Shown one piece after another: positions 523 through 25,316 of a stretch of 25,509 nucleotides of DNA. The notes below the pieces were generated by a model. The model made no database searches, had not been told where the DNA came from, and saw only the letters and a program-made list of their open reading frames with translations. Made by a program: the position numbers and the translations under genes. The DNA is from Baffinella frigidus. Taxonomy: Eukaryota; Cryptophyceae; Cryptomonadales; Baffinellaceae. How positions within the stretch are numbered: the stretch's first letter is position 1; the number at the start of each line of letters is the position of its first letter. The stretch spans positions 171,884-197,392 of the forward strand of contig MU646773.1 of assembly GCA_026770585.1 (NCBI GenBank). The letters are read 5' to 3'.

Positions 523-3500
523 TCAAGCGGAGTGGCCACCCTGCCCCACCCCCTTCTGAACATTAGTTGCACACGATCTGTTTTCTGCGAGGCTCCCGGG
601 GAGGGGAGTTCCCTTTACGCGGTAGAGTGTGATGACGATTCGGACGTGGAAGACGCCGACGAAATAGCCACTGAGGGGCGGAAGGCCTATCGCTACCCCT
701 CCGAAGCGGACCGAATCAATCATGTGACTTGAGCCATTTCCCGCTCGGAGCAATCCGTATTCGGAGATAATGGATTGCCTGCAATGCAAAAAAGATTTTC
801 TTGATTTGGTCCACTTCGGAGGGCTAGGGCGCTTGCCTGAACGCGGTAGAGTGTGATGACGATGAGTACGTAGAAGACGCCGACGAAATAGCCGCTCTCG
901 CACCCGTACTGCGCAGAGACGATTTCCGTGTTGTTTTGCTTCTCGCAGAAATGCGACCTGCAGCGCGAAACACGGTCACGAGCGTTGGGGGCCGACTTCA
1001 CCGCTTGACTTCGCTCGAGCACAACTCTCTTCGGAGGGTGGTGTCTCAAAGGTGTCTATCCACATAGTGGCACACAGAGTCTATCTCTGCCTCAGTCGGG
1101 TTGGCTGATCGTTTTCACAAAAGTGGACGAATGTGTACCGCACACCAGGGAAATCAACTTCCGGTCTCCTCATTTTGAGGAGATCAGATTAACTGAGGCA
1201 GCGCTAGAGAGTGTGCGGTCTGGTACCAGTAGGGCGCGAGGAGGATGAGCGAGATGTGGATGAGAGCGAAACAGAAGGCATCACCATCGACAACCCCGGC
1301 GACAAAAAGCTAGCGCTCACCAGTAGGGGGCGACAAAGCGCCCAGGTTCACCAACATGTAGGCTGAGAGACTGGGGTACCAGTAGGGGGCGAGGAGGATG
1401 GAGGAGATGTGGATGAGGGCGAAGCAGAAGAGGCGGAGCCCAACGGGCGTCTCTGTGTCTCGGGCCGACTGCCGATTCTCAACTTGACACGCTGGCTCCC
1501 CGGTACAAACCCGTCAACTTTCCCGCTGGTTGCAGCCCAGGCTCACTGAATTGGTGAGTCTGAATCGACTGGGGCAGGGAGACTCATCCTCGAAAACACG
1601 GTGCTGAGTGTGCGCTTGGGGAGGGTGGGGTTTGGTACCAGTAGGGTGCGAGGAGGATGGGGGAGATGTGGATGAGGGCGAAGCAGAAGAGGCGGAGCCC
1701 GACGGGCGTCTCGGTGTCTCGCACCGCGCGCACCTCTTCGAAATTCGCCATCATATCCCGCAGGTACACCTGTACCGAGGCTGGCTCGTCTTAAGGCTCA
1801 TAACCGTTTGGATCACTCATCTCCAGACTTGAGCGTAATGCAGGAGAAGAAAGAAGATCTGTGGCCCCGCCACGCCCCAGCACACACGTTACCACGAGAC
1901 CCGAAACCCGAAACCTACAGGACTTGCCCAGACATAACACAGGTGGTACCGAACGCAACACATAAGGCGCGCCGCCTGCACTGACAGCACCGCCCAGGTG
2001 CACGTTGTACGTACGGTAGCCAGCACGTGCGTGTGCCCCCCCCTCCTGAGGGCAGCACACGCAACTTCTAGCGCTGCCTCAGTCGGATTGACTGATCGTT
2101 TTCACAGTTGACCGCCTGCACTGGCAGCACCGCCCAGCTGCATGCTGCACGCTCAACCCTAGTAAACCACACACCCTAATGTTTAGGCCCTTCATCCCAT
2201 AGGGTGTGGGGTCCGCCTGCACTGGCAGCACCGCCCAGCTGCATGCTGCACGCTGCACGCTAAACCCTGAGAAACCCTAAACCCTAGGGTTTATTCCCTA
2301 AACCCTAGGGCTGAACCCTGAGAAACCCCAAACCCTAGGGGTTATGCCCTACACCCCTAGGGTTTAGGGTTTAGGGCACGTGCAGTAGCGTGTACGTGCC
2401 TCCCCCTCCTGATGGCAGACATCGCAACCTAGCTCTGCCTCACTGAGGTTGGCTCATCGTGTTCACACCAAAAGTTGACGGATTTGTTCCACACACCCGG
2501 GCACTCAACTTCCGGTCTCCTCATTTTGAGGAGACCAGATTGACTCAGGCAGAGCTAGGCAACTTGGCAGATGCACACCTGGAGTCGCGACAGGCCGCCT
2601 TCCCCCGGTTTCGAGAAGCCGGTCTTGGCGCTCAGGTCTCTGATTTTGAGGGAGATGGCTGCGAAGCCATCGTAGGGATTTTGAATAACCCCTAAGCGAT
2701 GAGACCTAGGACCCTATGGTAGGCAATCCGTAGGGACATAGGGGGGTTCCTACGGATAAGGTAACGGACACTCGGGCTCTCAGCGCCCGAAAATCCCTTC
2801 GAAGTCCGCTGTGTGGTTAGTAGGCGCACCTGGAGACGCGACAGGCCGCCTTCCCCCGGTTTCGAGTACCCGGTCTTGGCGAGCAGGTCTCGGATTTTGA
2901 GGGAGATGGCTGTGAAGCCGTCGTATACCACGTGCCCCGCTTCCGTCATGTGCGGGGATTTCATGTACCTGACCGCACCCCCTTTTCAGGAACCGAACCA
3001 GGACCCGAATCGTATGTTGACCCGTGTCAGTCCTTGCGGGTTTTTCAAGACCCTTGCGGGCTTAACAAAACGAAAATAGCAACGGGGTCGAGTGGCTTTG
3101 AGGGAGATGGCTGTGAAGCCGTCGTAGACTACGTGCCCCGCTTCTGTCATGTGCGGCGACATCATGTTCCTGCACGTACATAGATTGTTGGATCACGCAT
3201 CGCCAGGTTCGAGAGTAAAAAAAAAGAGAAGATGATGAAGAAGAAGAAGAAGACTTCTTGTACCTGCCATCACGCACCCCATCCCGTTTAGAGTTTTCGA
3301 GAGAGAGAGATAGACAGAGAGAGCACGAGCGAGAGAGACGAGTGAGCGAGAGAGAGCGAGAGAGCGAGCGAGAGAGATATATAGAGAGATATAGAGAGAT
3401 AGAGAGAGAGAGACGAGTTAGTAATGGGCCACCACAGCCTCACACCCTAAACTCAGCCCCACCATGTTGACTCAACCGGCAAGGTCTTGCAATTCATCCA

Positions 3501-4697: not shown

Positions 4698-4966
4698 CTT
4701 GCTCCCCGCCAAACGTTGATCCGCAGCCTGCTAGCGTCAACTAAAGCAGTTCCGGGTGTGGTCAACCGTGAAGCCTCTTGGTCGCAGCGTGAAACCTCTT
4801 GATCGCAGCAATGATCAAGCTTGACGAAGGCGAAAGCTTCCTTCAATGTCCAGCCATATTTTGGGCGATAATCAAACAGGTTATGAGCAGAAAAAGGGCT
4901 CCAACGACTTCCAAAATCCGGAGGGCATCGCGCGGCGTTCAGGCTCTGCTGCGTTCTCTCCACAGC
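4698..4966. promoter_or_regulatory. Shared divergent promoter region
   Basis: About 270 bp between the start codons of the minus-strand membrane gene and the plus-strand FG-repeat gene. It is lower in GC than the flanking exons. It holds two tandem copies of the 21-mer CGTGAARCCTCTTGRTCGCAG (4767-4787 and 4788-4808; the motif is 21 bases with one trimmed here: CGTGAARCCTCTTGRTCGCA). An in-frame ATG at 4811 could lengthen the plus gene by 52 residues. No TATA box is evident. Confidence 0.5.
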
Positions 4967-7900
4967 ATGAACTTCTCCACCCCCCCCCCCATCGGGAGCA
5001 GCTTCAGCGCCAAGCTGGACGCCGCCGCAACCCCAGCGATGGGTTTCGGTGCGGTGGCGCCTCCAGCTGGCGGTGGCTTCGGCTTTGGAGCGAAGCTCGA
5101 TCCCCCAGCACTCCCAGCGGCGGTGGCGCCTCCAGCTGGCGGCGGCTTCGGGTTTGGAGCGAAGCTCGCTCCTGCCGCGGCCCCAGCACTCCCAGTGCGG
5201 ACATCCCCAGCACCCCCAGTGCGGCAGCGCCAGGATCCGGGCGGGATCGCGCCCGCTTGGACGCAGGCTGTTGGAGGGGACGAAAACGCGCGGCGGGAGC
5301 GGGATCTGGTGGATGGCTTGAAGTGGGCGGTGTCGCACAAGAGCGCGGTTGTCTGTCTGGCGGCGAGCTGGCTGCCAGAGCCGTACATCCAAGCAGGGGT
5401 AAAGTGGCTGCGGCGGGAGGCGGCGAAGCTAACTGACGTCCGGTTCGTGTTTGTGCTCCTGGAGGGGCACGCGCCCGAGCTTCTCCCGCGCTTGCAGATC
5501 GTGCTCCACCACAATCTGCGCGTCGTCGGCCACGCTGACGAGGCGGTCGTGCTCCGCGAGCTCCTCCAGTCCAACGCCGACCTCGTGAAGCAGTACCCCG
5601 CCGTGCTCCTCCTCAAGGCCGGGAAAGTCGAGCAGGTCGTCCACGGGCTCCGCCCCGAGGACATCGAGGGCATCTGCAACAAAGCCCGGACCGCCAAGGT
5701 CGCGACGGGCGGGATCGGCGCCCCCGCCCCCGGAACGACCCCCGCCGAGGCCTTGGACGGAAATGCGCTCCACCGCGGCCCCAGCGCCCGAGGGGGTGGC
5801 AAGTCCGCGCCACTCGACATCCCCGAGGACATCCGGCTCTGCCGCGCGACGGTCGCGTCCTTGCTCACCGACGCCGCGGCCCACGCCAAGGAGCTGGCCG
5901 GGAAGGTGACGGCGGCCGCGGCGCAGCCTCCTGTCGCGGCGTCTGCGGCGGAGGCGGGCGCGCTCGCGGAGCAGGAGAAGGCGTGCGTCGCGCTGGTCCA
6001 GGGTGCTGAACACGCGCGGCACGATGGGGCCGGGCAGGTGCGGCGCGCCCGCCCCTCTCAAGGTTTTCTCTGTCTGGTGTACGGCGAGACCATTTGCTAC
6101 TGGACTGGGGCCTGACCAGAGTGTCGCGCGATGTGCATCGTTGAATCTGAAGATTCATCTTCCAAACCCCACCCCCGAGATTCTGATCCGGAAGCGTGTG
6201 CCGGGGCGCGGGTCGTTTGCTGCTGGGGCCTTGCCAGAGTGTAGATAGGCCGGGCATCATTCAACATGCCAACTCTCACTCCCGAAATTCTGATCTGGAA
6301 GCGTGTGCAGGGGCGCGGGTCGTTTGCTCGGAAGATCCACGAGGAGGGGCTGCAGACAAGCAAGGACCTCGCGCAGGCGAGCGTCCCCCGTATGCTTTTT
6401 GACTAACCCCAGCTTTTTCCTGTGCGGGGGACACTTCGGACCCGTACGCCTCCGAAGTTGACTTGCCGAATTCGTGTGCAAAGGTCGATTCGTATGGAGA
6501 AGTTGGGGGCTCGGGGCAGTGCAGGTTGTTATCCACAGGGACGGGACTGCTAGCTCTGTCCCAGCCTCTGTGGGCTCACTAATTTCGTGAGGCCATGCTC
6601 TTCCCCGCTCCAAAGTTGACAGACCTGTAGAGCCATTCCGGTAGGACTTGTCGCGTTTTCGACTTCGAGATTTCAAGATTTCAGACTTCAAAAAGGTTTT
6701 AAAGGGCGTAAAACGTTTCAAAACACACCGTTTCAAATCTCATGGTACAAATGAAGTCTCGAAGTCTCGAAGTCTCGAAATCGAAAACGCGACAAGTCCT
6801 ACCGGAATAGCTCTACCGCACACCCAGTCAACTTGAGAATACTCAGCGAACCCGACTGACACAGAGCTAGGACTGTGGCGCAGGCCCTGGCAGTACCTGC
6901 ATCGTGTCACGACGTCACCCCAAAGTTGACAGGTTTGTACTGCACACCCGGGATATCAACTTGTGGATAGTCCGGGAGACGGTGGCGGGGCTGTGGATTT
7001 AGCCAGAAGGATTGGGCCAGAAATCCCTTCGTAGCCCGCTGTGAAAATTATTGCACGTGAAAGAGGGCACGAAACGAGGGCACAAAATGCAGGTGAAAGA
7101 GGGCACGAAACAATATTGCGCCCACGAATGTCTCAAATTCCCAGACCTTTGACGCGTTTCCGGGCAAGAATCAGCGTTACTTAAAACTGAATTTCTGATT
7201 TGTGACTTGGCGTTTTCCACAGGCGCTGGCTGCGCTGTCGAGGTGCGAGGCGCACGTGAAAGAGGGCACGCGCGCGGGGGCTGCCACGTCCATCTCCACG
7301 TCCTTGGATCGCCTCAAGGTCGCGCCCCCGCTTTCTCAAACCTTAAACCCTAGACCCCACACCCCAAACCCTACACCCTGAACCCTGAACCCTGAACCTT
7401 GAACCTTGAACCCTAAACCCTAAACCCTAAGCCCTGAACCCCATACTCTAAACCCCAAACCCTAAACCCTAAACCCTACACCTTAAACCCTAAACCAACA
7501 AGTGTCTTGCTCGTTTGCCCACCCGCCGACCCCGGTACACATGATGGCAACTCCTCACACACGCACACACAAAGCGGCGCCATGCACTAGCGGGCCTCAG
7601 CGGCGAGGCGCGTGAACCCCCACACCCCTCCTTCTGGTAACAGAATCGTGACTTGAACAAGCATCGCATAACCAGGATGCGTCGCACGGCGCACGAGGCG
7701 GAGGGGCTCATCACTATTCACCTATTTTCGTCTTAACCCCGTCTATCATATCTCTTCCAGGATGAGAACGCTGCGCTCAAGACCGACTTGCAGAAGCGCA
7801 CTGACAACCCCCTCCCGTGCAGGCCAAAGGACACTGAATCAGTATCCCTTTTATGCTATGTTACGCATGGATGTTATTCCCAAGATATAAACAACCCCCC

Positions 7901-8395
7901 TCACCCCACGCCCCCCCCCCCGTGCAGGCCACGGTGGTCGACAAGGGCGAGGCCCCCTCGCGCATCAAGTGCTCCTCCTGGCTCGAGGCCGAGCTCGGGG
8001 CCTGGTCCGCGCTCACCGCCTCCGCCCCCCCGCACGGCGGGGCACACCCACGCACCCCATCCACCGACAAGGAGGCGAAACACCGCCTCTCCCCGCTCGC
8101 GTGGGCGATGCAGTCCTCCCCCACCACCCGCTCACGCACAACGTCCCCCGCCCCCCCGACCCCCACGCCGCGGAGCACGGCGGGGGACATGCTGCGCACG
8201 CCGCCGCCGCCGGCAAGGGGGGCCGCGAGGGCTACGGCGTCGCCTGGGTCGCCATGGACGCCTCACCAGGTCCCGCCCCGCCCCTCAAAAAGCAGCGTTG
8301 CCGGGGCGCCCCTCGAGGCTGTGTTCGGTGTTGGGCCTGGGCGGGGCAGCGGGGGGGGGCGAGCTTTCAGGACACCAGGCCCCCTCCGTGCCTGA
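4967..8395 (+). CDS. FG-repeat protein with CxxC-less thioredoxin-like domain, spliced
   Basis: Exons: 4967-6037 (357 codons), 6311-6376 (GC donor CAG|GCGAGC), 7223-7318, 7761 to about 7793, and 7928-8269 or on to the stop at 8393-8395. The first three junctions are phase 0 with AG acceptors. Residues 1-70 hold GFG/GFGFGAKL repeats in Pro/Ala/Gly-rich sequence, like the FG repeats of nucleoporins. Residues about 125-240 look like a thioredoxin fold: AVVCLAASWLPEPY takes the place of the WCGPC strand, and QYPAVLLLKAGKVEQVVHGL looks like the cis-Pro and last strands. Both catalytic cysteines are absent, suggesting a binding role. Exons 2-4 and the end of exon 1 are helical (FARKIHEEGLQTSKDLAQ, LAALSRCEAHVKEG, DENAALKTDLQ). 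The last exon is Pro-rich. The donor after DENAALKTDLQ was not found, so the 3' part is uncertain, and the gene may continue to the terminal exon at 11299. The function (nuclear pore or otherwise) is inference. Confidence 0.62.
6105..6222 (+). pseudogene. Upstream echo of FG-gene exon 2 and its flank
   Basis: Repeats the segment at 6225-6330 (GGGGCCT-GACCAGAGTGT ... CCGAGATTCTGATCCGGAAG ... GGCGCGGGTCGTTTGCT). The second copy runs into the true exon 6311-6376. This copy breaks off after the first few codons of the exon. Confidence 0.72.
6548..6871. mobile_element. R1 element carrying a nested MITE
   Basis: Ends CTAGCTCTGTCCC ... GACACAGAGCTAG, with core CCGCTCCAAAGTTGACAGAC and CCGCACACCCAGTCAACTTG. 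The core is split by a 184-bp palindromic element at 6630-6813. It lies in intron 2 of the FG gene. Confidence 0.8.
6630..6813. mobile_element. Nested 184-bp MITE with TA duplication
   Basis: Terminal inverted repeats of at least 32 bp start GAGCYATTCCGGTAGGACTT and go on GTCGCGTTTTCGA. TA flanks both ends (6628-6629 and 6814-6815). The interior is AT-rich, with three GAAGTCTC-type units. The TA target and long inverted ends suggest Tc1/mariner-type mobilisation. It encodes no transposase. Confidence 0.88.
6905..7045. mobile_element. R1 and R2 fragments
   Basis: An R1 core piece at 6918-6985 (CCAAAGTTGACAGGTTTGTA, then CTGCACACCCGGGATATCAA) is followed by an R2 end at 7005-7045 (AGAAATCCCTTCGTAGCCCG). 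Intronic. Confidence 0.55.
7050..7108 (+). pseudogene. Two short echoes of FG-gene exon 3
   Basis: GCACGTGAAAGAGGGCACG from exon 3 (7252-7270) recurs at 7052-7070 and, one base off, at about 7090-7108. A GAGGGCAC scrap lies between them. Both are upstream of the exon in the preceding intron. Confidence 0.75.
7338..7497 (+). repeat. C-rich telomere-like array in intron
   Basis: Degenerate CCCTAAA, CCCTGAA and CCTTGAA heptamers. It is C-rich on the coding strand of the FG-repeat gene and starts about 20 bp after the donor at 7319. Confidence 0.95.
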
Positions 8396-8550
8396 AAAAA
8401 CACCGCCCCTGCCTCTTGGGCTTTATGGTGTCCGCCCCTGCCACGTTAGGTTGACGGTGTTGGGGCATGTGGGGCGCCCGTTCCACGTTTGTGCAAGGGT
8501 GGGGCGTGTCGGTGGTTTTCTGGTGTTAGGGCCTGGGTGCGGCGGCGGGC

Positions 8551-10720: not shown

Positions 10721-11000
10721 GACTGAGCGTGTTAGCGTGTTGACTGTCCCATCTCTGGTCGTTGCGATGCCGGGCTGCTTCTTCCAATAGAGAGCCGCTA
10801 TCCCTACGCGGGAGCGCTATTTTATTTTAAAACACCCCAACGTATTTTAAGAATTTGTACCACAATCATCCACTTTTGGAGAGAATTGAAGGGGGGGATG
10901 ACTTTGATAATAGAGGGCTGCACCGGATGAGTGCGTTATTGGAGCCATTTGAGGTTAGGCCCTCCCAGGTAGCCTGGTGCATCTCTCACGGTTGTAGCAA

Positions 11001-11061
11001 TCCTGGTTCAGCTCTGACAGGAGCGGTGCACGCATGACCCCCATGGAGGAGAAGCAGCAAA
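11001..11061 (+). pseudogene. Echo of the terminal exon at 11299
   Basis: Copies the intron end and the first codons of the 11299-11374 exon (TCCTGGTTCA ... GACCCCCATGGAGGAGAAGC). R3 and R4 elements lie between echo and exon. The acceptor is CATG instead of CAGG here. Confidence 0.8.
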
Positions 11062-11255: not shown

Positions 11256-11298
11256 TAGCAAAATCCTGGTTCATCGCTGACAGTTGCGGGGCACGCAG

Positions 11299-11374
11299 GA
11301 CCCCCATGGAGGAGAAGCAGCAAGCGGTGCGAAGCATCCTGAAGCAGCAGGCGCTCTTCGGCTCCCGCGCCTAG
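11299..11374 (+). CDS. Terminal exon of a plus-strand gene
   Basis: Preceded by a CACGCAG acceptor. The frame continues a codon split after two bases and reads TP-MEEKQQAVRSILKQQALF, then GSRA and TAG. This is a compact helical C-terminal tail, much more protein-like than the opposite strand, and it has an echo upstream, as coding exons do in this window. The earlier exons are not found in 8400-11290. It may be the end of the FG-repeat gene or of a separate gene. It converges with RPB7. Confidence 0.5.
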
Positions 11375-12495: not shown

Positions 12496-14192
12496 TCACG
12501 CGTCGATGGGACCCAAGAAGTCGCCCAGGATGGTCCCGACTCCGTTCTGTTTAGGGTTTAGGGTTCAGGGTTTAGGGTTTAGGGTTTAGGGTTTAGGGTT
12601 TAGGGTTTAGGGTTTAGGGTTTAGGGTTTAGGGTTTGGGGCACGGCATAGGTCGGGGCACGGTAGTGGTTAGGGTTCAGGGAGAGCACGGCAGGGTTACG
12701 GCTTCAGGATTCATGGGTCCAGGTTTCAGGGTTCAGGGCTTAGGGGTTAGCGTTCAGGGCTAAGGGTTCAGGGGCGAGGGTTCAGGGTTCAGGCACGCTG
12801 ATGTTAGGAATCACGCTGGTGCCCTACCAATTCATCTCAACTTCGCCAGGCCCTTGGACTCGGTGCACTGTTTTGCCAAGAGCACGGCGCGCCGATGCCA
12901 CGCGGTGGACTACGAACCTTTCATCAAAAATCAACTTACCCTGTGGGTAGTTAGCTTTTAGGATGTTCTCATGCAAATTCCATCCAGATGGCACGGGGAG
13001 AGAAGTAGGGTTCAAGGTGTGTGCGAGCGCGAGCTCAAAGAAATTGCCGAGTTGGTGATGTCGTTGCTCGTGCGGAAGAGGGGCGGGGTTCAAGGTGTGT
13101 GCGAGCGTGCGCGTCACCCCCAAAGTCACGGAACCGATAGCACGGGAAGAGGGGCGGGGCGGGGTTCAAGGCCAGTGCGAGCATGAGCGTGAAATCACCG
13201 AGGTGGCGAGTCACGGTATCGATAGCTAGCACGGGTAAACGGGCTGTTTTTCATGGTGGGTGCGAGCGCGAGCTTGAAGAGGTTATCGAGTTGGTGATGT
13301 CATGCGGACGCCAATCAGGCCCAGCAGCAGTTCGTCGGCGGTTTGCTTTCAAGTAACTCTGTCTCCCTCTCCCCTAGATAGATCGATATATAGCTAGATC
13401 TGAATAGGATTGAATGGGATTACCGAGTTGGTGATGTCATTGCTCATGCGAAGGCCAACCTATCTATGTATCTGTGTATCTATGTATCTATGCATCTATG
13501 TATTTATGCATCTATGCATCTATGCATCTATGTATCTATGTATCTATGTATCTATGCATCTATGTATCTATCGCGTCATTACCGAGTTGGTGATGTCATT
13601 GCTCATGCGGACGCCAATCAGCCGCAGCCGCAGCAGCGATCCGTCCCTGCCCGGAACGCCCAGGTTACTTTTCTATGAAAATAGATAGATAGAAAGATAG
13701 ATCGATAGATACGAAAAGGATTTAGGAATATGAATAGGACCAGCCGCAGCCGCAGCGGTCCGTCCCTGAGCGGATGCAAGAGGTTCAGCAATGGATACGA
13801 GCCGCGAAAGCCATACTTTCCTATGAACATCCTATCCAGATGTATCTATCTTTCCATCTATCAATCTATACATCCATCTATCTATCTACCCCCCCTCGGA
13901 AGGAAGAAGGGCCACGGAAAGGGACTGACTAGCTCTGCCGCAGTCAAACAGGGCTCGTCATCACAACAGTGTGGGTGCCGTTTGAGAGGGAGATGCGAGT
14001 GGGGGGAGGGAGAGATCGGGGGGAGGGTTGTGGGCGGNNNNNNNNNNNNNNNNNNNNNNNNNNNNNNNNNNNNNNNNNNNNNNNNNNNNNNNNNNNNNNN
14101 NNNNNNNNNNNNNNNNNNNNNNNNNNNNNNNNNNNNNNNNNNNNNNNNNNNNNNNNNNNNNNNNNNNNNNNNNNNNNNNNNNNNNNNNNNNN

Positions 14193-14286
<94 letters not shown>

Positions 14287-17200
14287 AAGACTTGATGATC
14301 AAGCTGCCATCCCGCGACTTCCAGCAAGGCGGGGCGTGGTCGGCATCCCACTCGAGGTGGTCAGGCTCTTCGCTCAGCCGGCCGTCGCTCAGGTTTGTCT
14401 TGGCGATGAAAACCTGCCGGGGGGGAAGTTAAGGTTAAATAAATTATTCATTTAATAATTTATTTAATATATATGCCGCCAGCCGCCCGTCAGTCTAGCG
14501 CTGGTCGGCATGCCACTCGACCACTTAGCACGCGCCGATTTCCGTCCCCCCCGGATACCCGAGGGAAAAGCGGTTTGAATCCCAAGGCAATGGATAAGAT
14601 TCTAGTTCAAATAGTTCAAGCCCACGGTGGCTGCTAAGTGGATGGTGAGGCTCTTCGCCCAGCAAGCCGTCGCTCAGGTTCGTCTTGGCGATGAAACCTG
14701 CCACCTCAAAACTTCAGTCCAGCTCTGCCTGAGTAAAACTGAGCTCGCCATGAACCACTTTCAGAGCAGACGCCCCGTTGCAAAACGGCACCTCAACGGT
14801 TTTGATGGCGAGCCCAGTACCACCACCTGTAGGCATTGGGATAGAATTTTCTCTTTATGGCGTTGAATGGATATATCTCACTCATTATGGGGTTCGAACG
14901 GGATCACCTTGAGTGCCTGGTTGTTTATACTCAGGCAGCGCTATAGTCAGTCCCTTTCCGTGGCCCTTCTTCCTTCCAAGGGGGGTTTCACAAGCACAGA
15001 AAGGAAATCCTGGTCGAGGATTGCTACCACAAAGCGGGCTACGAAGCGATTTTCGGCCCATTTCGGGCCGAGTTTGCGTTACCTTATCCGAAGGAACCCC
15101 CCCATGTTCCTACGGGTTGCCTACCGTAGGGTCGTATGTCTCATCGCTCAGGGGTTATCCGAAATCCCTTTCCACGCCGGCTGTGTGGCAGGATTGCTAC
15201 TGCGAAGCTCCGAAACGGCAGAGTGAAGACTTCACCGTCCACAGGGACAACGCACCCTCCCGAGAAGACGGCCCTATGTCCCTACGGATTGCCAACCTTA
15301 GGGTCCTTGGATTATCCACGTATGGGGTATTCTCGAAATCCCGTCGCAGACCGCTGTGTGGTAGCGGCAGCGAAAGCAAGACGAAAACCAATGTACAACA
15401 CGACACAACACAAACAAGTAAGCTAAATAAATATTTATAAAATAATTTTCAACGGGTTATATAAAATGATTTAAAACTGGTTTGATGATTGACGGACCTG
15501 CATAGGCCCGCACTGGACGAACAGCCCCTGCTGCGCCGAGGTCTTGACCAGCCCGTTGATTACCTAAGGTTTCGGGTTTGGGGTTTAAAAGTTTGGATGT
15601 AGGGTTCAGGGTGTAGGGTTCAGAGTTCAGGGCTTAAGGTTTAGGGTTCAGGGTGTAGGGTGTAGGGTTCAGGGTGTAGGGTTTAGGGTTTATGTCCAGG
15701 GGTCAGGGTGTAGGGTTCAGGGTTCAGGATTTAGGGTTTAGGCTGAAACATGATTCAGGGTTTAGAGAATACCTCTCCCTTGAACGGCTTGAAGACGATC
15801 GCGTCATATGGCACCGTGAACACCGCCGTGCCTCCAGGCTTCATCCCTGCCCGATAGGTTTGGGTTTTTAGGGTCCAGTGTTGAGGGTTCAGACGTGAAG
15901 ACGATCGTAAGGGTGAGGGTTTAGGATGCCTATCGAGTCATATGGCACCGTGGACACCGCTGTGCACCCAGGCTTCATCCCTGCAGCATAGGGTTTGGGT
16001 TTCGGGTTCATCCCTGAAGCATAGGGGTTAGGGTTCAGGGTTCAGGGTTTGGGGGCTTGAAGACGATCGCGTCATATGGCACCGTGAATACCGCTGTGTC
16101 ACCAGGCTTCATCTCTGAAGCACAGTGTTTAGCATTTAGGGGTTCTATCGAGTAATATGGCACCGTGAACACCACCGACCCCCCAGGCTTCATCCCTGCA
16201 GCACAGTGTTTAGAGTTTGGGGTTTGGGGTTTGGGGTTTAGGGTTTAGGGTTATCGCGTCATGGCACTGTGCATACCGCCGTCCCCCCAGGCTTCATTCC
16301 TAAAACATAGGGGTTGGGGGTTAGGGTTTAGGGTTTAGGGTGTAGAATTTAGGGTTTTGGGTTTCGGGTTTCGGGTTTAGAGTTTAGGGTTTGGGGTCTG
16401 GGATTTAGGGTTTAGGGTTTAGGGTTTAGGTTTTAGGGTTTAGGGTTTGGGGTTTAGGGTTTGAGGGTTTAGGGTTGAGAGTAATGGGTCATGGGTTATG
16501 GGTTATGGGTTATGGGTTATGGGTTATGTGTTATGGGTTGTGGTTCTACTATCACTAGCAAGATCGAATTGTGTAGCAAATTTCTTTGACATAAACCTTT
16601 TCTAGAAAGCTTTATCTGAGAATAAGAGTGTGTGGGAGTGTGAGGGAGTTCGAGCGCGGACAGGTGGGGCATTTGAGGAATCTAGGTTGCCTGCGTAACA
16701 CTGGGCTCGCGATAGAATGCATTTAGGGCAGAGTGACTGGTAAGCAATTGCAAGTATGGTACATGTATGGGAGGATCCATTTTAAGAAGGCAGGGCTAGG
16801 GCCAAACAGCGGGCTACCAAGGGATTTTCCGGGCTGGAAATGCCCGAGTTTTCTTGACCTTATCCGTACGTATGTCCCTACGGGCTGTCTAACGTAGGGT
16901 TCCAGGTCGTATCGCCCAAGGGGTATTCAAAATCCCTTTGAAGTCTGCTGCGTGGGAGTGGCGGCGGACCCGTGGGGTTGATCTTGCCCTCCAGGCGGTC
17001 CACGTCGATCTTGATGACCTTGACAATGAACCCGAACCGCTCGCTGCACGTGTTCTCCACCTGTGCACCATCGCAGCTCTCGGCTCACGCGGCTGCGTCG
17101 GCTGGCGGCACGCTATGCTCGTGGGCGCCATCTGTCCAGTGGTTTCTCCACTCCACACTGTCCCGGCAGTGAGTCCTGCAAGGGCTAGCAGGGTGTCGAG

Positions 17201-17473: not shown

Positions 17474-17792
17474 CCTTTCCCCTCACCCCCCCCCCGCCCT
17501 CCACACACGCGCACGGATCCCCGGGGACGGGGGTTGCGGACCGTCCTGGTGCCAACAGGACAGCGCCGGAGGATAGCCCTCTCCGGGAGGATGCTTCGCT
17601 GCTCCGGGCGAAGGATCTCGATGATCCCAAGCACCCCGTCTCACAACCCACGACTTCCGACAGGACCCCGGCGGTGGAAATCCGTGGAATTGGGGTCAGT
17701 TCACAAAATGTCCACTTTTGGAGAAAAATCGATTTATTTGTCGGGTAAAATGACTTTAGTTCAAACTCACCAACGACATCTACAAACGAAGG
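17474..17792. promoter_or_regulatory. Shared divergent promoter region
   Basis: 319 bp between the RPB7 start (17473, minus) and the coiled-coil gene start (17793, plus). It contains a C-run at 17488-17497 and an AT-rich patch near 17710-17765. CCACTTTTGGAGAAAAATCG at 17710 resembles a segment at 10872 and may be part of a dispersed repeat. No TATA box is evident. Confidence 0.5.
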
Positions 17793-20700
17793 ATGGCGAT
17801 GGTCTTGGCGCGGCCCACGCTCCCGGAGATGAAGGAACTGCTGGCGGAAAATCAGAAAGATCTGCAGCTCACCGTGGTGCGTGCCGTGCCCTTGATCGGA
17901 TCCCTCTGGTGTGCGGGTTCTTGCTTCTGGCAGGCGGGCGGCGGGTGTGCGATGCTGACCAAACCCTCCTTGCGCAGACTCGTGCTATGGAGCAATGGGA
18001 GGAGCGAGGCGAGGATGAGGAGCAGCGATGGACCAACATGGAATTGGCCAAGGATGAGCATGCTCAGGCCAAGTACGTGTACGTGGAGATGGCAGGCAAG
18101 GAGAGGTTTTGTCGGGAGATCAGGGATGGTGACGAGCAGATGGTGAGGGACGTTGAAGGCGCAACAGAGCGCATGGAGGAATCCAGGCAGGAGGTGAAGG
18201 ATGCCAAGGTGCACGTCACCGAGTTCAAGGATTCGATCACCGCTCTGATCTCTCAGACGCTCGTAAAGAAGGAAGAGTTCGAGGCCGAGGTTGACGCTCT
18301 GAGCAAAATCGTGGAGGAGCGCGAAGCGCCGGGCGCGGACGGCGGCCTCCTCTCAGAACCGGAGGTGGCCGATGCCGAGGCGAAGATCGTCGACAAGCAG
18401 CAGCTTCTCCAGCGGGTCGATGAGGGGAAGTTGAAGGACCTCCATCAGGAGAAGCAGCAGCTGGAGGTTTCAGTGCGCACCAAAAACGAGGAGATCGAGA
18501 CCTCGAAGCCGGGGCCGGGGCCCAACTTCCGCGAGACGAAGAACCGGCGGATGGCGGCTTGGTACCGCTCTGCGAACACGGCGCTCTGCTCGCTCGCCAA
18601 CGTCGTTTCCGTCACCATGGCGGAGTCCGCCGCCGAGGTGCGCCTCCCCTTTCCCACCCGGATACCTCCACCGCGGAAAGCGCGTGTGTGCAGTGCAGTG
18701 CAGTTGGAAACGTGGCGGCTGACGCCCGCCACCAGGCCTCCCGAGTCAAGTGTTTTGACTGTGTGCGTTGGGAGGGTGTATTCCTGGGAGGGGTCGATTT
18801 CCGTTTCACCCGGGTACCAAATTCGGGAAATCTACAGAAATACTCCCCCCCCAGCGCGACCATGGTGTCTCTAGGGCCGCACCGACCGTAGGGGTGAACC
18901 GCTGCAGGATTTCAGAATACGTTCATTGAACAGCACACCCCCGCGCCAAGTGTTGGTCAACTGAAGTGGCACGAAATAGTGTGCACTTGCGAGGGCTGGT
19001 TGCCCCCCACCCCCACTCGGAAGGCTACGGGGCACGACCCTCCCCGGAAATCCGGTGAGAGACGTGACAAGTTGCTGACTTTTGGCGTGTTTCTTGGGCA
19101 AGAATCCAATGATTATCTTAAGCACGGTTCCTCGTAGTGTTCCGAGCGGCCGCGGCGCTGCTCGGCACGCATGCACCCTACCCCTTCCTGTGCACCCCTA
19201 ACCCCTTCAGACCCAGCGGGCGATCAGCGTAATCGCCACCCCTACACCATTCCACACCAAATTCACCGCACACGTCACCTCCTTAGCCTGAGTCACTCTA
19301 GCCAGGTGCGACGAGCCTGCGTCGCTCTAGCCAGGTGGGGGCCCTCTGGCTCACCCCCAAAACCTCCTCGATTTTTACGGGGGTTGACTTGCGAACAAAA
19401 CCTTCCCGCCATCAGGTGGAGATGGACATTCTGCCCCCCACAGTGTAGGCCCCAACGGGCGAGGCCCCAGAGGTCGATCATGGCAATCTCATCCGGAGGA
19501 GTATTCAAGTTGAATACGATCTGGCCACGAAAATTATTACACATGGTCTCACACAAGAAACAGTACAAAAAATTGTATAGTAATTGTTGTTGCCAGATCT
19601 GATTCAACTTGAATACTCGGCGGGATTAAATCGCCACCCTTACACACACCATTCCAAGCCACATTCACCGCTAGCTACCTCCCTAGCCTTAGTCACTCTC
19701 GCCAGATGGGGACCCTCTATCTGACGCGACAACGCTCTTTCCCTCTATCTGACGCGAGAAATCTCTTTCCCTCTATCTGACGTGACAACGCCCCCCGATT
19801 TTCTTAGGGGTTGCCTTGACGAAACAATTCATTCCCGCTATCAGGTCGAGATGGACATCCTGCCCTACACGGAGGGGGTGCGCAACCCCGCGACGGCGCC
19901 CACGCGCTACACTCTCGTCCTCGCATACGACCACGTCTGCCCCCCGCCCCGCTCTCTGTACTGTTTGGTGTACAGGTGTACGGTTAGTTGTGCAGGTGTA
20001 CAGTTTTACTGTGGTGTATACGGTTTTACTCTTTTTTGTAATGTTAGTGGTACAGTTAGTTGTACAGACCTCAGTGGTTGAGTGTGCTGGGTGTAGGGTG
20101 TAGGGTGTAGGGTGTAGGGTGTAGGGTGTAGGGTTTAAGGTTTAGCGTTGCCGCAGACTAGCTCTGCCTCACTCGGGTCCAGTATCAGGCTGTGCGCTAG
20201 TTGACATGCTGGGTGTGCGGTACACACCCGTCAACTGCGGAGCGGGAAAGGGCCCGGGCCCGCCAAATTGGTGAGCACAAACAGACCGAGACAGAGGTGG
20301 TGAGTGCCCCGCTTCCTCCGGAGGTGATACCGCCTCCCCAGGTGGATGCGGCGACCCCCCGGTGGGCGGCGTGCCTCACACTGTCTCAGTACCGCGCTTC
20401 ATCCGGAGGCCGCTGTCGAGCGAGGAGGAAACAATTAAAAAGATTTCAAGGACTTTCACCGGAAAGCCGAGGTCGTTTTTCGACCTGGACTGTCTTAAAT
20501 GTGCCGAGTTCGCTCGACAGCGGCACAGGGGCGCTTCGGGAAATGGCATGCCATGCAGAGTGCACTGCGAGCCAGGATTTTTTACCGTAAGTCAACAAAG
20601 CTGATCCTCGGCAGTAAGTTGCCATTTCGTTTAGATGGACCTGCTCTGGGTGCAGGCATTTGACTTACGGCGCTGGCTTTGAGGGGGAGTTGACTTAGGC

Positions 20701-22132
20701 GAAATGTTCTGGCTCCGAGTGGAGTGCGGTGTCGAGCACGGCACTAGGGCTCCGAGGCCAGGGGTTGCACAGGTACGTAGGAGCAGTCAAAGGTCTCACT
20801 CGTACGCCTGAATCCTCAAGTTGACGGACTATCCTCAAGTTGACATCCTGACTTCCGTGTACAACCGCAGGGGGATGATGTGGAGACGCTCAAGGCCGCG
20901 AACCTCTCGCCCAACGACGTAAACCCCAAACCTCAAACCCTAAACCCTAAACCCTCAACCCTGCATCCCAAACCCCAAACCCTAAACCCTGAACCCCAAA
21001 CCCCAAACCCCAAACCCTAAACCCTAAACCCCAAACTCCAAACCCTCAACCCTAAACCCTAAACCCTCAACCCTAGGTGGACATTACGGATCTCGAGGAC
21101 GCGGCGCTGTTCCGCGATCCCGTGACCGACAAGCAGGGCTCGCTCGCCACCCTTCTCTCTGAGGTACAAGCCTCTCTGCCACCCTTATCTCTGCTACCTT
21201 TTTCTCTGCGACCTTTTTCTGCGAGGTACACTTCGCTCTGCCACCCTGCTGTCTGAGGCACGCGCCTCCCCGTGCGGTTTACGGGGAGACCTTGGCGGCC
21301 TCGCGTAGGGGCTTCTTGATTGCCACTCTTCTCTCTGAGGTACCCTTCTCTCTGAGATTCCCAACGATGTGATGTGGACATTACGGATCTCGAGGACGCG
21401 GCGCTGTTCCGTGATCCCGTGACCGACAAGCAGGGGTCGCTCGCCACCCTTTTCTCTGAGGTACGAGCCTCCCCATGCGGCTCTTGGGTCGAGGTGAATG
21501 ATCCATCAACCCTCAACCCGAAACTCGAAACCCGAAACCTGGAGGTGTCGGGAGGGAACTGACCGAGGCATCAGCGAGCACGTAGTTTTCCAGACCGGTC
21601 GGCAGGGCAGAAAACAAGGTTGTGGTGTGGCGGCGCTCGGGCGGTGGTGGCTCTGAGGGGTTTAGGGTTTAGGGCGGCTTTGATGGGCGGCGTGCGATGC
21701 TTGCTCGCGAGCTTGTATAGAGATGTGCGAAAGGCAGGTTTCGGATATTCGCCTGCTGGATGCCGGTGAAACTCAACATTTATGTTTGGGACGGTGCGCA
21801 GGTGAAACTAAACAATACTGTGTGGGACGGTGCGGGTGAAAACCAGGGCGGCGTGCCGGCTGGCGCTCCAGGAGGGTGCGGGCGCACTGGCGGAGTTGAC
21901 TGAGGAGTTGGGCGAAAATCAGGCTTCGGGGATTGTGCGAAAATCAAGCTTCGGGTCTCTCTAACGGTGCAAAACAACCGCAGGTGAAGAACCGCGTGGC
22001 GTGCCGGCTGGCTCTGGAGGAGGAGCTCTCCGTGCTCCGCGATTCCTTCTCTGTCGATATCGAGGAGGTGCGTGCCCAGTCACCTGCGAGAGGTGGTGGT
22101 GGGGGGAGATCATCGGATCAGACAGACCGTAA

Positions 22133-22194
<62 letters not shown>

Positions 22195-22795
22195 GCACGC
22201 TTGAAACACGATTCTGGAGAAAGAGCTCTCCGCGCGATTGCTTCTCCGTCGATGTCGAGGATGTGCGTGACGAGTCGGGGTGGATTGGCTGAATAACAAA
22301 GTGGATTGGCTGAATAACATACACGCAAGTTGGTCGTTGAGGTGGAACCCCTCTGGGCCTTGCGCGGCTCACGGAGGAGCACTCTGGCCTGGTATCCTAA
22401 ACCCTAAACACTACACCCTCAACACTGAACACTAAACACTGAGCACCAAACACTTCACCCTCAACACTGAACACTAAAAACTTTACCCTCAACACTGAAC
22501 ACTAAACACTGAACACTAAACACTTGACCCTCACCACTGAACACTGAACACTGAACACTGAACACTAAACCCTTCACCCTCAACACTGAACACCACACCC
22601 TCAACACTACACCCTACACCCCACACCCCACACCCCACACACTACACACTACACACTACACACTTCACACTACACACTACACACTACACACTACATACCA
22701 AACCCGAAACCCTCAACCAGGAGAACGGCGCGGTGGTGCTTCGCATGTCGCCCAAGGACCCCAACGCCAAGACCCCGACCAAGGTGCCTCCCGCC

Positions 22796-22832
<37 letters not shown>

Positions 22833-22857
22833 CTCTCGCTCTCGATCTCGCTCTCTA

Positions 22858-22903
<46 letters not shown>

Positions 22904-24745
22904 CCGCCCTGACAGCCCCCCCTCGGGACTGAAAACTGTGCAGCGGCGTGCTGGTGTTGAACTCCTAACTTTCTCCGCCCCACATGACAGGTGGTGCGCT
23001 CGCCCGCGAAGCCCGCCCCGGCGCGGTGGCACTGCGAGGTCTTACCCCTCACCTCTGAAGCCTGAACCTTAAACCCTAAACCCTAAACCCCAAACCCTAA
23101 ACCCTAAACTCTCTAAAACCTAAACCCTAAACCCCCTCAACCCCCAAACCCTAAACCCTGAACCCCACACCCTAAAGCTTCAAACCCAAACCCTAAACCC
23201 TGAATCCTAAACCCTGAACCCTGAACCCTAACCCCCAAACCCTGACCCCCGAACCCCCGAACCCCCAAACCCCAAACCTCAAACCCTACACCCCAAACCC
23301 CAAACCCCCAACCCCAAACCTCAAACCCTAAACCCCACCCCCCAAACCCCACACTCCACCCCCCAAACCCTAAACCCTCAGCCCGAAACCCGAAACCCTA
23401 AACCCGAAACGCAACACCAGGTGGTGATCGACATGGACTACCCGCGCTCGCACGCCCCCCCCAGTGTCCGCTCGGTCTCTACACCCTAAACCCTTTATGC
23501 CTTTTATGTTCTTTATGCCCTAAATTATCAACCTTCGCACGCGCCCCCCAGCGTCCGCTCGGTCTCCGAACTCTCAACTCTGCACCATGAACCCTACACC
23601 CTACACCCTTCACCCTACACCCTACACCCTACACCCTACACCCTACACCCTACGCCCTACACCCTACACCCTACACCCTACACCCTACACCCTTCTCTCC
23701 ACACCCTAAAACCATAAACACTCAACCCTAAACTCTAAACCCTGAAACCATCGGCATGGCCTGCCCGCGCTCGCACGCCCCCCCTGGCGTCCGCTCGGTC
23801 TCTAGACCCTAAACCTGAAACCCCACACCCTAAACCCTTCAACCCTAAACCCTGAACCCTAAACCCAACCCCTTAATGCCCCAAACTCCCCAAAGCCCCA
23901 AACGCCACACCCTAAACCTCAAACCCTAAACCCCAAACCATAAAACCTAACGCTTAAACCCTAAACCCTGAAGGGGGTGCAGTTCCGTTAGGAGTGCGTG
24001 AACTCGCCCTGTGACCGTGTCCCGAACCCCGGCACCCTAGACCCTTACCCGAAATCCCCAACCCCAACCCTCCGTCCTAAATCCAGGTCCGCAAGGGGAC
24101 TCGCCCTGAGAACAGCGCAACCGTGACCGTGTCCCGAACCCCGGCACCCTCAACCCGAACCCTTAATCCCCACGGGGTGGTGAAGGGTGCCGTGTGCCGC
24201 CCGATGAGATGGCCGAGGTCGTCGATGAGCTTCAACCTGAACCCCAACCCTCCGTCCTGAACGCAGTTCCGCAAGGGGACGGGGGCCTCGCCGGGCAAGA
24301 AGCGCGAACGCGGCATCGAGGTACACCCCCACCTAGTTTCAGGGGTGATGGCATTTATGTAGTACTTTTCAGGGTTTCGGAGAGAGAGCGAGGGAGCGAG
24401 AGAGAGCGAGAGAGAGAGCGAGTGTGTGTGTGTGCGAAAGAGAGCGAGAGCGAGAGCGAGAGCGAGAGCGAGAGCGAGAGCGAGAGCGAGAGCGAGAGAG
24501 AGAGAGAGCGCGCGAGAGCGAGCGAGAGAGAGCGCGCTCGCGCGTGCGCGCGAGAGAGAGCGAGCGAGAGAGAGAGACAGCCGGGAAACAAGCGCGAACG
24601 CGGCATCGAGGTGAACCCTAAAACCTTGAACCTAAAACCTCAACTCTAAACCCAAACCCCTGCACCGCAGGACGCGGTGAACGAAGACCACAAGACAGTC
24701 ACGTCCCTCGTCACGGAACTCCGCGCGCGTCTCGGTGGCCAGTAG
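17793..24745 (+). CDS. Coiled-coil protein with RWD-like C-terminus; KNL1/Spc105-type candidate
   Basis: Eleven exons: 17793-17876, 17978-18637, 19845-19934, 20871-20918, 21077-21163, 21984-22067, 22721-22783, 22991-23038, 23421-23474, 24267-24320, 24671-24745. All ten introns are phase 0 GT-AG, giving 448 codons then TAG. Exon 2 is a long acidic coiled coil (residues about 30-215), ending RRMAAWYRSANTALCSL. The later exons give short strands and helices: VEMDIL, RYTLVLAYD, DVDITDLEDAALF, VKNRVACRLALEEELSVL, GAVVLRM, then WHCEVVIDMDYPRSHAPPSV. The last resembles the strand and YP motif of RWD domains. A coiled coil followed by RWD folds, with an aromatic W(Y) helix before the first strand, recalls the C-terminal kinetochore domain of KNL1/Spc105, which binds the Mis12 complex. 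MELT and PP1-binding repeats are absent and the gene starts close to RPB7, so it would be a short form. The exon chain is well supported; the family is a hypothesis, and another RWD protein is possible. The stop lies in an R4 element. Confidence 0.62.
19230..19446 (+). pseudogene. Echo of exon 3 and its upstream intron
   Basis: The block CCACCCCTACACCATTCCAC ... GCCAGGTGG ... CGCCATCAG|GTGGAGATGGACATTCTGCC repeats 19630-19870, where the true exon 3 follows. The echo stops at ten codons (VEMDILPPTV, then TAG). Confidence 0.85.
19499..19618. mobile_element. 120-bp MITE-like element
   Basis: 26-bp inverted ends GAGTATTCAAGTTGAATACG (then ATCTGG) and CCAGATCTGATTCAACTTGA (then ATACTC), with two mismatches. 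The inside is AT-rich, unlike its surroundings. It lies between the two copies of the exon 3 block. Confidence 0.88.
20085..20140 (+). repeat. TGTAGGG array, opposite polarity
   Basis: Seven or so GGTGTAG heptamers, G-rich on the coding strand of the coiled-coil gene. Exception to the general polarity; a sister array is at 24818-24862. Confidence 0.95.
20156..20300. mobile_element. R1 element
   Basis: CTAGCTCTGCCTCACTCGGG ... AGTTGACATGCTGGGTGTGC then GGTACACACCCGTCAACTGC ... CCGCCAAATTGGTGAGC, ending near GAGACAGAGG. Confidence 0.7.
20409..20524. mobile_element. 116-bp element with perfect 15-bp inverted ends
   Basis: GCCGCTGTCGAGCGA at 20409-20423 and its exact complement at 20510-20524. 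Inside, AGGTCG-TTTTT-CGACCT (20470-20486) forms a small hairpin. It could be a MITE or a structured RNA. Confidence 0.65.
20920..21076 (+). repeat. Telomere-like array filling intron 4
   Basis: The intron reads exon-GTAAACCCCAAACCTC ... ACCCTCAACCCTAG-exon; it is almost wholly CCCTAAA-type heptamers, so both splice sites are at the array's edges. Confidence 0.95.
21164..21365 (+). repeat. Repeated exon 5 donor scraps
   Basis: Several copies of CCACCCTT-TCTCTGAGGTAC from the end of exon 5 and its donor occur between 21179 and 21358, each diverged (TCTCTGCGACC, TGTCTGAGGCAC and so on). Confidence 0.8.
21374..21460 (+). pseudogene. Full-length, in-frame copy of exon 5
   Basis: 87 bases, three differences from exon 5 (two silent, one Leu to Phe), with the GTACGA donor kept. 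No AG directly precedes it (GATGTGAT|GTGGAC). The bases before it, CCCAACGATGT, echo the end of exon 4 and its donor. Very recent duplicate. It could be an alternative exon only if another acceptor is used. Confidence 0.88.
21838..21880 (+). pseudogene. Echo of exon 6, 5' side
   Basis: AGGGCGGCGTGCCGGCTGGC followed by GCTCCAGGAGG is a diverged copy of the start of exon 6 (KNRVACRLALEE). Confidence 0.78.
22133..22191 (+). repeat. CA microsatellite
   Basis: About 29 uninterrupted CA units, between exon 6 and its downstream echo. Confidence 0.97.
22208..22272 (+). pseudogene. Echo of exon 6, 3' side
   Basis: TCTGGAGAAAGAGCTCTCCG ... GATTGCTTCTCCGTCGATGT then CGAGGATGTGCGTGA copies the second half of exon 6 and its donor, beyond the CA run. 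Confidence 0.83.
22393..22715 (+). repeat. Variant array, AACACTGAACACTA units
   Basis: Heptamers drifted from CCCTAAA to CACTGAA/CACTAAA and then ACACTAC. It fills intron 6 up to the exon 7 acceptor (CCCTCAACCAG|GAG). Confidence 0.93.
22798..22902 (+). repeat. CT microsatellite
   Basis: Interrupted (CT)n with CGCT and TATCT variants in intron 7. Confidence 0.97.
23045..23420 (+). repeat. Telomere-like array filling intron 8
   Basis: About 50 heptamers drifting between CCCTAAA, CCCCAAA, CCCGAAA and CCCTGAA, ending AACGCAACACCAG at exon 9. Confidence 0.95.
23475..23975 (+). repeat. Intron 9 arrays with two exon 9 echoes
   Basis: Telomere-like repeats, including (CCCTACA)n at 23588-23690, interrupted by exon 9 copies at 23535-23573 (CGCACGCGCCCCCCAGCGTC ... 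CTCGGTCTC) and 23757-23805 (GGCATGGCCTGCCCGCGCTC ... CTCGGTCTC). Both keep the donor TCG|GTCTC, which supports the exon 9 end at 23474. Confidence 0.87.
23978..24112 (+). pseudogene. Two upstream echoes of exon 10
   Basis: GTGCAGTTCCGTTAGGAGTG at 23977 and CCAGGTCCGCAAGGGGACTC at 24084 copy the acceptor and first codons of exon 10 (CAG|TTCCGCAAGGGGAC). Each is followed by a shared GTGACCGTGTCCCGAACCCC block. Confidence 0.82.
24378..24577 (+). repeat. GA/GCGAGA microsatellite
   Basis: About 200 bp of (GAGAGC)n and (GA)n with a short GT run at 24423-24434. It separates exon 10 from its downstream echo. Confidence 0.97.
24580..24611 (+). pseudogene. Downstream echo of exon 10
   Basis: GCCGGGAAACAAGCGCGAAC followed by GCGGCATCGAG and GT copies the last 31 bases of exon 10 with minor change, donor included. 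Confidence 0.87.
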
Positions 24746-24816
24746 GCTCATACGCCCTACCGTAGGGCTCTAGGACCTGGCGTGGGTCTTTTATGACCCC
24801 CTGGCCACTTAAGGGA
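24738..24816. mobile_element. R4 element overlapping a stop codon
   Basis: CCAGTAGGCTCATACGCCCT then ACCGTAGGG ... GGCCACTTAAGGGA is R4 in reverse, with its first 13-14 bases missing. The TAG at 24743-24745, which ends the coiled-coil gene, and the CAG before it lie in the element. Confidence 0.8.
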
Positions 24817-24817
24817 T

Positions 24818-24907
24818 AGGGTGTAGGGTGTAGGGTGTAGGGTGTAGGGTGTAGGGTGTAAGGTTTCGCCGCGCGGTTGACTAACTTGTGCGCGGTTGAC
24901 TAATTTG
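24818..24907 (+). repeat. TGTAGGG array and a short direct repeat
   Basis: (GGTGTAG)n at 24818-24862, then two copies of GCGCGGTTGACTAAYTTG (about 24872-24908). Downstream of the coiled-coil gene. Confidence 0.9.
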
Positions 24908-25231
24908 CTTTATTAAATGGATTTTATGGGATCTGGGATCTGGTGCGTGGACAGGCGAGGGCCGCACCCTGAACTGGACCCCGCATCCCGGCGGGGCCTG
25001 CAGCACGCCGGGGATGCAACTGCACTCCTCAGAGTTACCTCGCTCGTAGTGGACCCTGGGGTGCGTTTTCTTATGCGGGGGGAGCCCTGCGCGTGTCACC
25101 GCCCCTTTACATTACGCTTATTGCGGCGGATCACGGCGTTGCAACGCCTTTTGCTCGCGGGCGCATCTACATGCGGAGTAAGTGCGGCGGATCACACATG
25201 TACATTATGTTCATTACTCTGGATCACGGCT
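24908..25231. other. Convergent intergenic region with R3 end and exon echo
   Basis: Positions 25027-25092 carry a diverged R3 (GTTACCTCGCTCGTAG ... TTTTCTTATGCGGGGG). Positions 25097-25165 repeat the end of the exon at 25232-25316 (GCGGATCACGGCGTTGCAAC, then GCCTTTTGCTCGCGGGCGC). No other gene is seen. Confidence 0.6.
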
Positions 25232-25316
25232 TTACGCCGGCTGGTGTTCGCGGGCGACGCGGAGCTCATCGGCAACCTCGGCCATCTCTTCGAGCGCGTG
25301 CCGCCCCCAGGAGTAG
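25232..25316 (-). CDS. Terminal exon of a minus-strand gene entering from the right
   Basis: After a GTGGACAG acceptor (minus strand) the frame, entered with a codon split two bases in, reads YSWGRHALEEMAEVADELRV then AREHQPA and TAA. It is a helical, protein-like C-terminus with a downstream echo of its tail and stop region at 25097-25165. The family is not recognised. The rest of the gene lies beyond the window. Confidence 0.55.

Follow-up and report, generated by a model that had tools for sequence, protein, structure and literature searches.

The window analyzed here, a stretch of 25,509 nucleotides of Baffinella frigidus DNA (positions 171884-197392 of contig C462 in assembly G000, 382 Mb), was modeled as four genes with a total of 29 exons and 25 introns: a membrane-protein gene (M, minus strand), an FG-repeat gene (FG, plus strand), RPB7 (minus strand) and a coiled-coil gene (CC, 17799-24745, plus strand, 11 exons). 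The published draft of strain CCMP2293 is given as 534.5 Mb with 41.1% repeats (PMC9756366). Throughout, "echo" denotes a partial copy of an exon in the intron or flank adjoining that same exon; exons, echoes and associated elements are listed in Table 1.

Transcript support differed between the genes. Joining the RPB7 exons on the minus strand of the window produced a peptide identical over 152 residues to B. frigidus protein P0001, whose sources include NCBI and the MMETSP transcriptomes, among others. The CC model agrees with P0024, a 446-residue protein that was read as the product of a spliced transcript because its longest contig (1465 bp) is too short to accommodate the CC introns. M exons 1-3 and the start of exon 4 agree with transcriptome protein P0028, which is chimeric past approximately residue 210; its first part matches the M gene of the window and its last part a paralog on another contig (G000:C227:357066-362359), reflecting either an assembly chimera or something odder. 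P0028 does not bear on M exons 4 and 5, and the FG model is covered by no transcript, its exons having been placed by splice signals alone, with the start of the last exon a guess. A Pfam search of eight window ORFs returned nothing beyond a sub-threshold match of the CC protein to the kinetochore family Sos7, and the window contained no tRNA and no Rfam match at gathering score.

Between 14038 and 14285, next to the RPB7 exon 5 donor, the sequence reads as a string of N and then 93 G, probably a gap artifact; the splice joint of exon 5 is still given by P0001. A 52-bp inverted repeat (92%, 13890-13939 / 14934-14985) brackets RPB7 exon 5 and its echo, and a 34-bp inverted repeat (88%, 24198-24231 / 25263-25296) lies between the CC gene and a coding-like stretch near 25232.

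Partial exon copies and the splice sites they keep

Self-comparison of the window revealed many same-strand repeats adjoining exons. A strict test, with exon-only queries aligned to the introns of the same gene, arrays masked and a score of at least 20, produced 20 merged matches at 11 of the 29 exons. No exon (0/29) was matched in any control, i.e., antisense introns, the introns of other genes (each of three draws) or block-shuffled exons (each of ten sets). A sensitive pass (40-bp flanks, cut-off 18) yielded 27 echoes at 14 of the 29 exons, and all 14 are among the 25 exons shorter than 200 nt (our own count). This total includes one echo of the FG last exon that was added by hand and leaves out 15 CC exon 4 hits, which were matches to telomere-like arrays. 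Aligned lengths ranged from 19 to 107 bp and identities to the exon from 74 to 96%, except for an exact 19-bp piece of FG exon 3; with identities in this range, the echoes are not simple assembly duplicates. Across the masked window, 56 local direct pairs were detected versus none in each of 30 dinucleotide shuffles.

The central claim of the preliminary description, that partial copies in the same orientation adjoin exons, was thus confirmed, as exon-versus-own-intron alignment exceeded its shuffled, antisense and other-gene controls and the local direct pairs of the window exceeded the dinucleotide shuffles. Its claim of six transcription units with echoes was borne out for M, FG, RPB7 and CC, each with at least one such exon, but not for the two units placed at 11299 and 25232: the former most probably belongs to FG as its last exon, and the latter coincides with a weak pair (25108-25163 / 25201-25256, 73%) and has no gene evidence. 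That echoes flank most small exons holds, barely, for the 14 of 25 exons below 200 nt, whereas its extension to every gene has to be qualified, as three of the four modeled genes also have exons with no echo recorded.

Table 1 Exons, echoes and associated elements in the window
Feature	Position	Strand	Remarks
M exon 3	2830..2968	-	present in transcript-derived P0028
M exon 3 upstream echo (exon -9..73)	3097..3179	-	acceptor side kept, 88%; exon in public model P0027
M exon 3 downstream echo (44..145)	2573..2674	-	donor kept, 91%; partly coding in P0027
Insert between M exon 3 and downstream echo	2675..2823		element C copy (element listed 2674-2817); flush both sides
M exon 4	1639..1769	-	gene model
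M exon 4 downstream echo	1375..1467	-	donor kept, 94%; element A between
M exon 4 second downstream echo	1193..1277	-	donor kept, 84%
M exon 5	843..957	-	gene model
M exon 5 downstream echo	602..672	-	donor kept, 85%
FG exon 2	6311..6389	+	inferred from splice signals
FG exon 2 upstream echo	6170..6221	+	acceptor side, 92%; nearly plain tandem unit
FG exon 3 piece, 19 bp	7053..7071	+	no splice site; exact match
FG last exon (probable)	11287..11372	+	by eye; start guessed, 11284 to 11299
FG last exon upstream echo	10999..11060	+	matches 11262-11323, 90%
RPB7 exon 3	15773..15846	-	agrees with P0001
RPB7 exon 3, four upstream echoes	15925-16002, 16054-16141, 16147-16223, 16253-16339	-	acceptor side kept; amid telomere-like sequence
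RPB7 exon 5	14292..14413	-	agrees with P0001
RPB7 exon 5 upstream echo	14643..14702	-	acceptor kept, 90%
RPB7 exon 6	13583..13646	-	gene model
RPB7 exon 6 downstream echoes	13419-13458, 13043-13076	-	donor kept; alignment
RPB7 exon 6 downstream echo	13300-13330	-	neither splice site; alignment
RPB7 exon 6 upstream echo	13741..13774	-	acceptor side, 84%
CC exon 3	19845..19934	+	gene model
CC exon 3 upstream echo	19380..19441	+	acceptor kept, 83%; within ~400-bp duplicated unit
CC intron 4	20919..21076	+	~154/158 nt telomere-like, C-rich on sense strand
CC exon 5	21077..21163	+	agrees with P0024
CC exon 5 partial downstream echoes	21208-21255, 21233-21268, 21315-21354	+	donor side kept
CC exon 5 full-length downstream echo	21374-21471	+	donor side kept, 96%
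CC exon 6	21984..22067	+	agrees with P0024
CC exon 6 upstream echo, first part	21832..21875	+	acceptor side, 80%
CC exon 6 downstream echo, last part	22213..22276	+	donor side, 81%
CC exon 9	23421..23474	+	agrees with P0024
CC exon 9 downstream echo, partial	23535-23581	+	donor kept
CC exon 9 downstream echo over full exon	23709-23815	+	donor kept
CC exon 10	24267..24320	+	agrees with P0024
CC exon 10 downstream echo	24580..24618	+	donor kept, 90%; microsatellite between
Element A copies	1081-1207, 2429-2558, 20158-20296 and others		
Element C copies	2674-2817, 15026-15169 and others		

The splice site kept by an echo is set by the side of the exon on which the echo lies. Single-site echoes make up 23 of the 27, in agreement with the preliminary description, in which copies keep one splice site and lose the other; all 11 upstream examples retain the acceptor together with the beginning of the exon, all 12 downstream examples retain the donor together with its end, and opposite polarity was observed in none (0/23). 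The others comprise two downstream echoes spanning the full exon and two that keep neither site. Counted per exon side, 16 of 17 fit this polarity rule and none is opposite, for which the chance under random sides is approximately 3 in 100,000 (our own arithmetic); without the hand-added FG echo the rule is followed by 22 of 22 single-site echoes and 15 of 16 exon sides. Because one exon must stay whole, the rule is what duplication of a contiguous stretch over a splice site would give; transfer of a fragment to a remote position is not enough to produce it. Polarity is the footprint of a change from P-D-Q to P-D-insert-D-Q, with selection keeping one exon whole. The exon-side edges of the echoes fall mostly within unique coding sequence (alignments read by eye), which, together with the one-sided splice-site rule, fits an error of repair or replication better than recombination between repeats.

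P0001 and P0024 are echo-free at the joints that they cover, and so is P0028 in its first part. The public model of the M gene (P0027) includes both M exon 3 echoes (2573-3179) as coding, whereas P0028 does not, and automatic annotation may therefore be wrong in other genes, although this is the one case seen. Exon-echo mismatches at the first, second and third codon positions numbered 28/376, 40/379 and 48/377, respectively (p = 0.056; 6 indels; FG pairs left out), suggesting that the echoes decay nearly neutrally; neutrality is only approximate because mismatches are somewhat commoner at third positions.

Local direct repeats beyond exons and the DNA between copies

Local direct repeats (gaps of up to 700 bp) cover 28% of the non-exon bases in the window and 21% of the exon bases, a share that rises to 38% when small exons are taken alone. 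A process specific to exons is disfavored by the exon value compared to the non-exon value, though not by that of the small exons, whose enrichment may arise in part because selection holds one copy constant. The duplicated fraction of unmasked DNA was 25.4% in the window, 23.1% in five echo-blind loci and 19.8% in 29 loci containing element A (see below). The five loci are the readable part of 20 stretches in which 163,526 of 200,000 bases are N, and they form a small sample (30,038 unmasked bases) because most sampled bases read N; at gaps below 800 bp they contained 85 direct versus 8 inverted pairs. The duplications are thus not exon-specific, and their density is similar in the few other loci read.

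An independent example was encountered in a locus fetched for element A and likewise echo-blind (L010), which encodes part of an LL-diaminopimelate aminotransferase-like protein (best solved-structure matches, E ~1e-6). One of its exons has three more partial copies downstream, one with a changed donor. The exon that follows is accompanied upstream by a copy that includes the acceptor and downstream by a copy, only some dozen bases long, that includes the donor. With the working exon chosen by inference from residues shared with the family, this unrelated gene shows what appear to be copies in the order predicted by the duplication model. In the M paralog on C227, query residues 310-330 align at two places separated by 130 bp, the second of them weakly (E 0.056; coordinates alone). 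An aldolase exon in another locus (L014) had no local echo, though this locus ends soon after the exon, and a RAN-like query produced no clear gene. No second copy of the echo locus was found, CC exon 2 having a single match in the assembly.

Gaps between local direct pairs were rarely small (≤5 bp in 3/129, ≤30 bp in 7/129), and since classical tandem duplication leaves no gap, the filler needs explaining. Of the 94 testable pairs, 38 have an insert similar to an outer flank, consistent with a larger tandem unit that includes the insert, and 56 do not. Most inserts contain no recognizable foreign DNA, and the inserts are heterogeneous, with no single shared family. Between exon and copy, a telomere-like array, microsatellite or palindromic element had been reported as nearly always present. 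Arrays or palindromes do exceed expectation in exon-side inserts (11/17 versus a control mean of 6.4, with 2 of 400 control sets as high in an automatic test), which falls short of nearly always; inspection by eye showed telomere-like sequence or a copy of element A or C in three of the six inserts negative in this test, whereas controls were judged by the automatic test alone. Away from exons, the corresponding values were 30/60 versus 24.5 (reached in 6 of 60 control sets) and, in a second set, 57/111 versus 49.2 (reached in 7 of 60). A tie to repeats is accordingly seen at exon sides and is weak or absent elsewhere. Dispersed-family hits were obtained for 44 of 104 inserts versus 36, 40, 30 and 31 in controls (with the fetched loci as the database), and telomere-like inserts numbered 15/104 versus 11-19 in controls; arrays lie next to the echoes of RPB7 exon 3 and of CC exon 9.

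Elements A and C each represent a dispersed fold-back family; a first look at the genome gave 895 candidates for A and 2362 for C, and for element C 40 places were scored. A process driven by the inserts was considered and rejected: several of the 29 element-A loci had repeats in both flanks at first look, but a controlled test showed no excess, as 8 of 52 full-length A/C copies were flanked by direct repeats and 3 were near flush, versus 230 and 126 of 1500 random 140-bp segments. The upstream insert at M exon 3 gave no other match in a search of the assembly, and a single match does not prove rarity.

Of the 25 modeled introns, 13 contain telomere-like arrays, and in 11 of these 13 the sense strand is the C-rich one (p = 0.022; exceptions, M intron 3 and CC intron 3), a bias that could come from splicing selection because the arrays contain neither GT nor AG. 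The full-length copy of CC exon 5 is preceded (stretch 21357-21373) by sequence that matches the end of exon 4 over 8 bp, with the array absent between them (by eye). Together with the array of CC intron 4, this hints at a gained intron, one short match being no proof.

Origin of the echoes

We interpret the echoes, with moderate confidence, as what is left of short direct duplications of local sequence, common where the genome was readable and filtered by selection on genes, with staggered-break end joining as their most likely source. One event would take a contiguous stretch D of ~30-100 bp. Breaks with long staggered ends would be filled in on both sides and end-joined with filler at the junction, and the product would be P-D-I-D-Q, with two direct copies and a usually unrelated I (~30-400 bp) between them; some events would instead leave near-adjacent tandem units. 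A D crossing an exon/intron border would be tolerated only when one copy stays part of a whole exon, and the other copy would stay behind in the intron as an echo that keeps the splice site on its side, decaying almost neutrally thereafter. The copies, their polarity, the similar density in other loci, the near-neutral decay and the lack of echoes in transcripts at covered joints are observations, whereas we infer the staggered break, the fill-in, the origin of I and the order of events. Of the recurring break-and-repair duplication proposed in the preliminary description, local duplication across the splice site is retained and fits repair, whereas a process linked to exons is not, and the tie to repeats loses force away from exons.

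The main rival is short-range template switching or templated filler, in which an end that has stalled or broken would switch back to a neighboring D, copy it and rejoin, I being pre-existing. It is compatible with an insert make-up near background, with broadly spread gap sizes and with M exon 3, where the flush element C seems truncated by a few terminal bases and linked to the echo via a short shared motif (by-eye reading of this one site). However, it does not by itself predict the polarity rule, and copies with the opposite site, which it leads one to expect, are missing from all 23 single-site echoes; we regard it as a serious but clearly less likely explanation than staggered-break end joining. 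More speculative, and in our judgment unlikely, is that the telomere machinery routinely processes breaks whose single-strand overhangs are long (telomerase extension, then fill-in by CST and Pol alpha-primase), leaving D - telomere-like repeat - D scars that enlarge and create introns, as CC intron 4 and the short match preceding the exon 5 copy would illustrate; the C-rich sense orientation would then be kept because (CCCTAAA)n has neither GT nor AG.

An inserted element, whether mobile, introner-like or fold-back, that generated a very long target duplication would account for element C lying flush between M exon 3 and its echo, for element A beside the echo of M exon 4, with one side flush, for the near-flush repeats around elements at two further loci (L028 and L054) and for the flanking repeats of several element-A loci at first look, families A and C both being dispersed. 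Such an insertion is nevertheless improbable given that the A/C copies were flanked no more often than random segments and that the inserts share no family; the insert with no other copy found also speaks against it, subject to the limit on rarity noted above. That echoes serve as alternative or decoy exons could be argued from the good splice sites of some and from the two used as coding in P0027, but transcript-derived proteins skip them at covered joints, most have one splice site only and their mismatches are spread across codon positions, making a function of this kind very improbable. Unequal recombination between dispersed repeats, plentiful as these are, would duplicate whole exons between repeats, whereas the edges observed lie mostly inside unique exon sequence, and we give it hardly any weight. 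Assembly artifact, suggested by the draft status and by the gap and homopolymer runs near 14038-14285, is highly unlikely, as copies differ from the exon and from one another, similar copies occur on another contig and CC exon 2 was matched once in the assembly.

Comparison with known systems

Should the density seen here extend genome-wide, this alga would offer a natural record of a break-repair signature, in which exons act as fixed references orienting each scar and divergence ranks the ages of scars, and intron growth and birth would become directly testable in a large cryptophyte genome. Among the PMC-licensed papers that the literature searches listed, exon echoes in cryptophytes were mentioned in no title or opening part of an abstract. 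The statement that no named system matches the pattern does not stand, since staggered-break repair and small tandem duplication are already described (PMC4202315, PMC3443670, PMC8355091).

Staggered double-strand-break repair has been proposed for new introns of Daphnia, in which repeats shared with the exon measure 4-12 bp and internal repeats from repeated breaks are also present (PMC4202315). The echoes resemble these in having direct repeats of exon-terminal sequence across an insert; the polarity rule indicates, indirectly, that a contiguous target was duplicated in direct orientation on both sides of the junction, and the exon-side edges in unique coding sequence are without long homology. 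They differ in size, as repeats of ~20-100 bp (19-107 bp aligned) contrast with a few to ~12 bp, and in setting, as they lie in introns and in other DNA, whereas Daphnia has presence/absence alleles (PMC4202315). Rogers and Bendich describe direct repeats of 4-30 bp (mean 11.4) at or near the borders of 213 of 213 introns and read them as insertion traces (PMC11782384); the position near intron ends is similar, but here longer exon copies lie inside the intron.

Small adjacent duplications in human and mouse cells arise by fill-in at 3' overhangs through CST and Pol alpha-primase and are, like the echoes, short and contiguous with non-homologous edges, but there the copies are adjacent whereas here they are usually 30-400 bp apart (PMC8355091). 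As the gap counts above indicate, adjacent copies are rare in the present material. Patch-mediated break repair has reportedly been described in rice by Vaughn and Bennetzen in 2014, with natural insertions said to be local duplications. Intron gain by tandem genomic duplication with AGGT likewise duplicates exonic sequence within a gene; there, however, the duplicated unit becomes the intron (PMC3443670), whereas an echo sits inside a longer intron, which is not a single duplicated unit between two AGGT copies. Introners would form one dispersed family with terminal splice sites, and no such family was recognized among the inserts, nor were A/C copies enriched for flanking repeats. Interstitial telomeric sequences, inserted at break repair and accompanied by duplications at 6 of 130 rodent and 4 of 25 primate loci (PMC2246262), share the occurrence of telomere-like arrays at interstitial sites, but here such arrays are common in introns and have no clear tie to duplications. 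Overall, known repair errors would explain the echoes in kind, while copy length (~30-100 bp), density and polarity appear to set them apart.
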